NCBI GenBank assembly: GCA_015228815.1
Contig: JADGCV010000020.1
Coordinates: forward strand, 1-41,566
Source of the DNA: Magnetococcales bacterium
GTDB lineage: Bacteria; Pseudomonadota; Magnetococcia; Magnetococcales; UBA8363
Length of the DNA: 41,566 bases
Reading direction: 5' to 3'
Both the position numbers and the translations under genes were made by a program. The notes beneath the pieces were generated by a model. The model was not told the origin of the DNA and did not search any database. It was given only the letters and a program-made list of their open reading frames with translations. Below, one piece after another: positions 10,577 to 12,402 of the stretch; the first letter of the stretch is position 1; every line of letters starts with the position of its first letter.

Positions 10577-10609
10577 TTTCATTTTGCAATATCTCCCTGC
10601 ACTTCCAAT

Positions 10610-10836
10610 GTAACCGTTCAGACCCCCTCTCCCTCCGGGAGAGGGTCGGGGTGAGGGGAAACAGAAACTCCATCATTCAAAAGGCTGTGGTGATCCTTGA
10701 AGAACCATTCCAATTGCTTGATTTCGTGACGAGATCTTTCTATGGAATTACCGTTGATCAAAGCGCCGGTTCCCTCACCCCTGCCCCTCTCCCAGAGGGA
10801 GAGGGGAAAAAATCCAGGGGGGGTCTGAACGGTTAC
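10610..10836. mobile_element. MITE-like element with IS66-type ends and 8-bp target duplication
   Basis: The 227-bp element begins GTAACCGTTCAGACCCCC (10610-10627) and ends with the exact reverse complement of those 18 bases (10819-10836). CTTCCAAT occurs directly before it (10602-10609) and directly after it (10837-10844), a perfect 8-bp direct repeat. Inside each arm is a palindromic CCCTCTCCCTC(C/T)GGGAGAGGG module followed by a GGGGTGAGGG run, in opposite orientation. It encodes no transposase; open frames across it are products of the repeat. Ends starting GTAA and 8-bp duplications are typical of the IS66 family, so it was probably mobilised by an IS66-type transposase elsewhere. Confidence 0.8.
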
Positions 10837-10856
10837 CTTCCAATTCAATCGATTTT

Positions 10857-10922
10857 CTTTAACCTTATGGGTTAAACTTTTTTATGTCGATTTCCTTTAC
10901 CCGATGGGTTAAACTTTTTATG
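10857..10922 (+). promoter_or_regulatory. Duplicated palindromic operator/leader before higBA
   Basis: A 30-base block at 10857-10886 is repeated, with small changes, at 10895-10922. Each copy holds a palindrome: TTTAACC-TTATG-GGTTAAA, and TTTACCCGATGGGTTAAA. Each then continues AACTTTTT(T)ATG, so both copies end in an ATG, at 10884 and 10920. HigA-type antitoxins normally bind palindromes in their own promoter, so these are candidate operator sites. That role is inferred from position and symmetry. Confidence 0.6.
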
Positions 10923-11264
10923 GAAATTTTTTTTCGCGACCGGAAGCTGAAAAAAGAGTGTAACAGCCAACAATCCTTGCAAAAAGCCTATGGAGAGAAG
11001 CAGGCCCGATTGATTGCCCTCCGTCTCAAGGCCATTCGTGCGGCGGTTCACCTTGGTGAATTCTGGCCGACCCAAAAACACACGGGGCGTTGCCATGAAC
11101 TGAAGGGCAATCGGGCCGGTCAGTTGTCCATGGACCTGGACCATCCCTATCGCCTGATCTTCGAACCTGCCAATGTTCCCATCGAACAACGTCCCGAAGG
11201 TGGGCTCGACTGGCATCGGGTCACAGCCATTTTGATCATTGGTGTGGAGGATACTCATGAATAA
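10920..11264 (+). CDS. higB: HigB-like RelE/ParE-superfamily toxin
   Basis: This 114-residue basic protein has the layout of HigB/RelE-type mRNA interferases. Helices rich in Lys/Arg (ALRLKAIRAAVHLGEFW) come first, followed by strands with ELKGNRAGQLSMDLDHPYRLIFEP and a final ILIIGVEDTHE. Family members cut mRNA at the ribosome. I chose the ATG at 10920; an upstream ATG at 10884 belongs to the duplicated leader and would add 12 residues of unlike character. The gene overlaps higA by eight bases, with toxin first and antitoxin second, which is the typical HigBA order. The insertion of a MITE 75 bases upstream could affect expression. Confidence 0.82.
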   Translation: MEIFFRDRKLKKECNSQQSLQKAYGEKQARLIALRLKAIRAAVHLGEFWPTQKHTGRCHELKGNRAGQLSMDLDHPYRLIFEPANVPIEQRPEGGLDWHRVTAILIIGVEDTHE

Positions 11265-12402
11265 GCCGATTGCAAATCAGTATGTTCCGGACCATGCCGT
11301 TCATCCAGGCGAAATCCTGGAGGAGTACCTCTCCGCTCTGGGAATGAACCAAACCGAGCTGTCGGCACGTACCGGCATCGTACTCAAACATATCAACGAG
11401 ATCATTCGTGGAAAAGCTGCAATCACGGTCGATACCGCACTGAAATTGGAACGCACGGTTGGCCACTCCGCCAGTTTTTGGAACAACCTGCAACAACTGT
11501 ATGAACAGGACATTGCCCGTTTGGCCGACAATAAGCGTCTTGAAGAAGATCTTGGATGGCTGAAACAGATTCCGGTTCGGAAGATGGCGGAGGCTGGGTG
11601 GATCAGGACATTTCAGGACAAGAAAGAACAGCTTGCCGAGATTCTCCGATTCTTTGGCGTGGCTTCACGGGCGCAATGGGAGTCTGTTTGGAGTGGATCC
11701 CCCGTGGCAGCCTTTCGCCAGTCCAGAAATGGAACGATCAGCGAAACCGCCGTGTCTGCCTGGTTGCGTCAGGGAGAAATTCAGGCGCAGGCAACCCAAT
11801 GCGCGTCGTTCGATAAAGCGGGATTCGAAAATGTATTGACGGAGGCCCGCCATTTGACCAGAGAGCCGCCACGGATTTTTCAGCCCCGCCTGATCGAACT
11901 GTGCGCTGGAGTTGGCGTGGCCGTGGTCTTTGTCCCGGAACTGCCCAAAACCGGCATCTCTGGCGCAACCCGATGGCTCACCCCCAACAAGGCATTGATT
12001 CAACTCAGTCTGCGTTACAAGGCTGACGACCAATTGTGGTTCACGTTTTTCCATGAGGCGGGGCATATCCTGCGGCATGGAAAGAAGGATGTGTTTCTGG
12101 AAGGTGTTGCGGGTATGAATCAAGAGAAGGAGAATGAAGCCAACCAGTTTGCCGCCGATTTTCTCATTCCCGCCGACCGTTGGGCTACCTTCAAACAAAA
12201 GCACCCATACACCTTGGCCACGGTGAGGTCTTTTGCCGAAACATTGGAAATCGCCCCCGGAATCGTCATCGGGCGGTTGCAACACGAGAAGATTGTGGCT
12301 TTCAAGTGGGGCAATAATCTGAAATGTCGATTGACATGGCAGAAGGCCGGGCAAGACAACTCGGGTTGGAGAAATACAAATGACGCCATCCTTGACGAAT
12401 GA
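11257..12402 (+). CDS. higA: HigA-type antitoxin fused to ImmA/IrrE metallopeptidase
   Basis: The N-terminal 90 residues are a HigA/VapI-like helix-turn-helix domain with the hallmark HPGEILEEYLSALGMNQTELS and a recognition region (INEIIRGKAAITVDTALKL). The following 290 residues end in an ImmA/IrrE zinc peptidase (COG2856) with HEAGH at 266-270 and a distal Glu in NEANQFAADFLIP. Ordinary HigA proteins are about 100 residues, so this is the long fused form. It should neutralise HigB and repress the shared promoter; proteolytic activity is suggested by the intact zinc motif but unproven. The start at 11257 has GGAGG six bases upstream and overlaps higB by eight bases. This is the second Xre-ImmA protein in the window. 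Confidence 0.85.
   Translation: MNKPIANQYVPDHAVHPGEILEEYLSALGMNQTELSARTGIVLKHINEIIRGKAAITVDTALKLERTVGHSASFWNNLQQLYEQDIARLADNKRLEEDLGWLKQIPVRKMAEAGWIRTFQDKKEQLAEILRFFGVASRAQWESVWSGSPVAAFRQSRNGTISETAVSAWLRQGEIQAQATQCASFDKAGFENVLTEARHLTREPPRIFQPRLIELCAGVGVAVVFVPELPKTGISGATRWLTPNKALIQLSLRYKADDQLWFTFFHEAGHILRHGKKDVFLEGVAGMNQEKENEANQFAADFLIPADRWATFKQKHPYTLATVRSFAETLEIAPGIVIGRLQHEKIVAFKWGNNLKCRLTWQKAGQDNSGWRNTNDAILDE

Follow-up and report, generated by a model that had tools for sequence, protein, structure and literature searches.

The window analyzed here, a stretch of 41,566 nucleotides from a Magnetococcales bacterium, carries just upstream of a toxin-antitoxin gene pair a 227-bp repeat that, with a probability of about 90%, is a non-autonomous mini-element (MITE) mobilized in trans by a single-ORF, ISBst12-like transposase of the IS66 family. 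Between its ends lie two copies of the intrastrand triplex motif (TM) of Holder et al. 2015 (PMC4666352). As a MITE, the element is of a known kind; its interest lies in the link between a recognized class of mobile element and a TM whose spread had lacked an explanation.

The anatomy of the element can be read directly from the window (Table 1). Its left end and the reverse complement of its right end agree at 18 of 18 positions, the first mismatch falling at base 19, and the 8 bp that flank it on either side are identical (8/8). The initial annotation had described a 227-bp MITE with perfect 18-bp terminal inverted repeats (TIRs) starting in GTAA, an 8-bp duplication and two inverted, hairpin-prone modules inside, and each of these features was confirmed. 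The element displays the hallmarks of a MITE: it is short, is bounded by TIRs, contains no transposase gene (for which it is also too short), and is found at several unrelated sites with target duplication. Moreover, its TIRs are common to autonomous elements, being exact at both ends of one IS66 element (L249) and near-exact in two others (L126/L127). Ends that begin with GTAA and a target duplication of 8 bp agree with its derivation from IS66.

Table 1. Features of the MITE and of the genes downstream, in window coordinates.
Feature	Position	Strand	Remarks
Left target-site duplication CTTCCAAT	10602..10609		Same as 10837-10844
Left terminal inverted repeat GTAACCGTTCAGACCCCC	10610..10627	+	18/18 with right end; matches the IS66 ends in L249, L134, L245 and L302 (17-18 nt) and L126/L127 (GTAACCGTTCAGAGACCCC)
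Probable non-autonomous mini-element (MITE), 227 bp	10610..10836	+	Five full genome copies, 98-100% identity
First intrastrand triplex motif (TM)	10625..10657	+	CCCTCTCCC-TCC-GGGAGAGGG-TC-GGGGTGAGGG; same motif as TMECO (PMC4666352)
AT-richer core between both TMs	10658..10771		No transposase gene
Second TM, inverted	10772..10805	-	CCCTCTCCC-TCT-GGGAGAGGG-GCA-GGGGTGAGGG on the - strand
Right terminal inverted repeat	10819..10836	-	18/18 with left end
Right target-site duplication CTTCCAAT	10837..10844		Same as 10602-10609
Two palindromic repeats (TTAACCTTATGGGTTAAAC / TTTACCCGATGGGTTAAAC)	10858..10913		Presumed operator of the two genes that follow
Small ORF in HigB position	10920..11264	+	No family match; region 79% identical DNA in G005
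HigA-family antitoxin with IrrE-like domain	11257..12402	+	TIGR02607 6.6e-20, Peptidase_M78 1.8e-9

The insertion had been placed about 20 bases before a higBA operator region, and indeed 21 bases separate the end of the element from the start of the palindromic repeats (~10858), one copy of which is conserved in the congener G005. Of the gene pair, the antitoxin was confirmed as a member of the HigA family. Its presumed partner HigB matches nothing in Pfam, NCBIfam or the PDB sequences and is so called by position only. A site scan of the element gave no promoter-like or terminator-like site that clearly exceeds chance expectation.

The genome of the same bacterium (4.2 Mb in 96 contigs, several of which end inside these repeats) contains five full copies of the element at 98 to 100% identity and two more cut by contig ends. 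Perfect 8-bp duplications flank three of the five full copies (CTTCCAAT, GAAAAAAA and CCTCAATC) and are absent at the other two. Recombination between known copies was considered as the cause of the missing duplications (L004, L005 and the contig-end copies) and rejected, since the flanks do not pair. One copy, L005, has no target duplication, and part of its terminus is repeated in tandem at the right end (1708-1737; GAATGGTTAC GAACGGTTAC). The element is not a chance arrangement, because the 15-base TIR core is enriched both in the window (6 matches with up to three mismatches, versus 0.77 expected) and genome-wide (31 matches with up to one mismatch, versus 1 for the reversed control), and because four more full copies exist. 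Of the checks that had been named for the MITE, further copies with the same ends exist, and the absence of an insertion in relatives is indicated at the C41 copy. There, about 60 bp lie between the aligned flanks in four congeners (G001, G004, G005 and G006) versus about 435 bp here, the latter consisting of the element, its duplication and another repeat. The left flank of the window copy has no homologue in the congeners, and only its higBA side has one, in G005. That congener holds a 227-bp copy of its own with the duplication TTTGGACC, and the whole element is 86 to 90% identical in a congener. Another congener, G007, has 74 TIR matches over many contigs, mostly of the variant GTAACCGTTCAGTCCCC; in this one species, related mini-elements have undergone a burst.

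The same TIR also bounds other mini-elements of the genome, 65 to 453 bp long, five of which have perfect 8-bp duplications (GCTGAGGC, GTCATGTC, GAATATAT, GGGATGGC and ACGCCTGG). Their interiors differ; therefore, the ends and not the interior are what is mobilized. Elements of a second set (111 to 453 bp, with the same TIR and 8-bp duplications; C12:59567-59961 [L036], C17 [L052] and C43 [L047]) are built of TTTCTTTCAATAATT / GGGGTCTGGGGGATTGCCCCCAGGG repeats, pieces of which are present in dozens of copies both here and in the congener G002. Same-TIR elements of about 118 bp (C1:59811, C36:19025 and C12:62209; L030, L055 and L051) have the interior CGTCATTCCC...GGATCCAGG, which resembles another common bacterial dispersed repeat (ATTCCCGC...GCGGGAAT). 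At about 34.7 kb of C12 (L012, from 1601), a degenerate copy of the element directly adjoins a CRISPR-array-like array of repeats of the form CAATCCCCTTTCATGCGGGGCGATGACTTCAAGAAG.

That the element folds strongly (-116.8 kcal/mol, z = -7.4) could suggest a structured RNA or a terminator that happens to be repeated. We consider this highly improbable: inverted TIRs and inverted TMs account for the fold, Rfam gave no match near the gathering score, the single terminator-like site is weak and no better than expected by chance, and the same ends enclose different cargo. Furthermore, in earlier work, as far as Holder et al. cite it (PMC4666352), the motif was without promoter or terminator activity.

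The ends of the MITE are widespread. When 84,980 species genomes were scanned for the 18-mer TIR, at least 120 stretches matched; among the matches listed are Magnetococcales, Chromatiaceae, Methylococcaceae, "Ca. Thiosymbion," "Ca. Venteria" and several gammaproteobacterial bins. Duplications were counted at all convergent TIR pairs, taken without selecting for duplications. Among 87 such pairs in other genomes, a perfect direct repeat of 8 bp is present at 53, versus none of 4 to 6 bp, one of 7 bp and three of 9 bp, and mismatched flanks (left versus right flanks of other elements in the other genomes) never match (0/7,482). In the genome of the window, 8 of 19 pairs have a perfect 8-bp duplication and none has one of 4 to 6 bp; here, the mismatched-flank control gave 1/342. 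Given 53/87 at 8 bp against 0/7,482 in the control, the TIR identifies a large set of mini-elements that have an 8-bp target duplication. This set, ending in GTAACCGTTCAGACCCC and found across Proteobacteria, is undescribed as far as the open literature shows: searches with the TIR sequence returned unrelated papers only, and no paper linking MITEs, IS66 and triplexes was found in this literature, so that an earlier description of IS66 MITEs elsewhere is possible.

Which transposase recognizes these ends is indicated by IS66 elements of other genomes, which bear out the IS66-type ends proposed initially. In the same class, IS66 elements of 1.7 to 1.97 kb contain one transposase ORF and terminate in GTAACCGTTCAGAGACCCC; at eight loci (L126, L127, L139, L142, L144, L148, L151 and L152), they are flanked by perfect 8-bp duplications. 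A metagenome bin contig, which may be misbinned, holds an intact IS66 element of 1,732 bp (L249) with the exact 17-nt window TIR at both ends. Its single transposase ORF matches PF03050 (2e-44) and NF033517 (2.8e-73) in profile searches, as the transposase of L081 also does; its flanks, GATGAGTG and TTCATAGG, show no target duplication. Transposase fragments adjoin the exact TIR at three further loci, L134 (Magnetococcales), L245 ("Ca. Venteria ishoeyi") and L302. Where both ends are present, the partner elements encode one transposase of ~540 amino acids and no tnpA or tnpB, as is typical of the ISBst12 group. In a tree of 23 transposases, the end types GTAACCGTTCA, GTAACTATTCA and GTAAGCG fall in separate clades; the fork uniting the GTAACCGTTCA clade has a support of 93/98, and the branches between clades are long. 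In these sequences, TIR type follows transposase clade.

An IS66 transposase with matching ends, the existence of which the initial annotation had proposed to check, exists in the same class and on the metagenome contig, but none was found in the assembly of the host. The search of its 96 contigs, from which collapsed repeats may be missing, gave no IS66 transposase of the matching clade. With PF03050, a single IS66 piece was detected, a remnant of 49 codons that is of the GTAAGCG type and has the ends GTAAGCGCCGAACGAACCCC, and TnpB has no match; an IS66 element of this genome was accordingly rejected as the direct partner. The remnant (C17:57242-57388; L058) is of the classical IS66 kind, and its right end is tandemly duplicated.

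Near a TIR, the L058 region and the start of contig C72 have in common transposase-like coding DNA that looks IS4-like by eye, and a transposase of another family with a similar 8-bp duplication, such as an IS4-like one, might then move the element. This is very unlikely, as IS66 transposases were seen in several independent associations with the TIR, the ends being exact or near-exact and the TIRs matched to the clade, and no element of another family was seen with both ends. Mobilization by an IS66-family transposase, as initially suggested, is supported by the copies, by their 8-bp duplications and by IS66 elements with matching ends. From the anatomy, the copies, the duplications and the matching IS66 ends and transposase genes observed, we infer that a transposase of this single-ORF IS66 kind acted on these copies and is, or recently was, in the cell.

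We next consider the cargo. The internal module, CCCTCTCCC-nnn-GGGAGAGGG-nn-GGGGTGAGGG, is the TM, and both window copies follow its pyrimidine-purine-purine pattern (CCCTCTCCC / GGGAGAGGG / GGGGTGAGGG). TMs occur in more than 260 bacterial genomes and have been linked to genome instability, and triplex formation in vitro was shown for the E. coli motif (PMC4666352). Holder et al. reported neither an association of TMs with transposons nor transposase or integrase remnants nearby (PMC4666352). The initial annotation had taken the module for a dispersed intergenic repeat; it is indeed present, but in this genome it is nearly confined to the element. Of its ten strict TMs, nine belong to 227-bp copies, both of the contig-end copies being counted, while the tenth is accompanied by a degenerate TIR on one side. 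Similar figures come from stretches of two gammaproteobacterial bins, chosen for holding the TIR and thus describing the stretches, not the whole bins. In 126 kb fetched from nER1bin10, 16 of the 24 TMs lie between two TIRs and the other 8 adjoin one, mostly at contig ends; in 129 kb from nTSbin2, the corresponding figures are 12 and 1 of 13. A strict TM is enclosed by 24 of the 62 TIR pairs with a duplication (up to one mismatch), and a TM-like variant by 12. Unrelated gammaproteobacteria have elements of about 92 bp with the same TIR and a single TM.

TMs are also found without these ends. In 11 of 12 cases, no GTAA-type ends surround TMs in plasmids of other genera (Azospirillum, Klebsiella, Methylobacterium, Xanthomonas, Enterobacter, Sphingomonas, E. 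coli and Leptolyngbya). In the Pseudanabaena plasmid ABRG53c (L328, 374-534), a TM pair lies inside a mini-element with the TIR CTCACCTTACGCAG and the 7-bp duplication TTTATCA; here, the TM is apparently carried by a different transposon family. Inspection of other Magnetococcales (G010, G021, G016, G008 and G037) revealed no GTAACC ends at TMs. G010 and G021 have 23 and 38 TMs, respectively, mostly as inverted pairs about 25 nt apart (L331, L332, L338, L339 and L359-L374). These pairs represent a REPIN-like form, free of such ends, within this order; G016 has single TMs.

Free pairs and single TMs of this kind, together with the TMs devoid of such ends in Klebsiella, E. coli, Azospirillum, Methylobacterium and others, would fit a scenario in which the TM itself is the multiplying unit, as in REP/REPIN-like sequences, and the IS66-like ends are incidental. 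For the element of the window, this is improbable: the conserved unit reaches the TIRs and stops there, the 8-bp duplications abut the TIRs and not the TM, elements with the same TIR and duplication but without a TM exist, and every TM within the ~255 kb fetched from the two bins lies in or adjoins a TIR. The proposal that IS66 elements spread the CCCTCTCCC...GGGGTGAGGG repeat thus stands for this genome and for the sampled stretches of both bins, but not as a general explanation. Since TMs occur elsewhere without these ends, in many bacteria including other Magnetococcales, IS66 is a TM vehicle in some lineages only.

In the mechanism that we favor, mobilization in trans, an IS66-family transposase would recognize the terminal GTAACCGTTCAGACCCC repeats and move everything between them, duplicating 8 bp of the target upon insertion. 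The cargo would be the inverted TM pair with its short core, and each transposition would plant two TMs at a new intergenic site. The same TIR may likewise have mobilized other cargo, such as the 65- to 453-bp elements of this genome and the ~92-bp single-TM elements. Since the C-run of the left TIR, with which the first TM is fused, is also the start of the first triplex strand, the TM possibly helps transposition, although this fusion is suggestive only and the TM may equally be a passenger. More tentatively, and with less than even odds, IS66-type mini-elements may have been the vehicle that carried the TM into and around several lineages, the motif perhaps being kept as a transposition aid.

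The discoverers of the TM found no mobile element; here, the motif sits in elements with TIRs, 8-bp duplications and an identified class of transposase. With such elements known in Magnetococcales and in two gammaproteobacterial bins, there is at least one concrete route by which TMs spread. The instability associated with TMs might, as a conjecture where E. coli is concerned, also reflect the insertion and decay of mini-transposons.

Among known systems, the closest on the transposase side is the ISBst12 group of the IS66 family, a likeness drawn via ISDge4 and the features of the group. ISDge4, which was shown to transpose with an 8-bp duplication (PMC12898284), has GTAAC-type imperfect TIRs (GTAACTGCTCAGCA), and the single transposase ORF of the partner elements is a further common trait; the GTAACTATTCA end type in particular resembles ISDge4. 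Unlike members of this group, the window element has no transposase, and its TIR GTAACCGTTCAGACCCCC belongs to a clade apart from the GTAACTATTCAGCA type. In architecture, it recalls MITEPsy1 and MITEPsy2 (PMC3189936), which are non-coding, measure 100 to 230 bp and have TIRs in common with a full insertion sequence; MITEPsy1 also has a target duplication. Their suggested parents are of the IS5 or Tn3 type, whereas that of the window element is probably IS66-like and its cargo is a known TM. The internal modules share the sequence pattern of the TMECO entries (e.g., CCCTCTCCCTGTGGGAGAGGGCCGGGGTGAGGGC; PMC4666352). In E. coli, TMs are described as not associated with transposons or transposase remnants (PMC4666352), while in the window they lie inside a mobile element.
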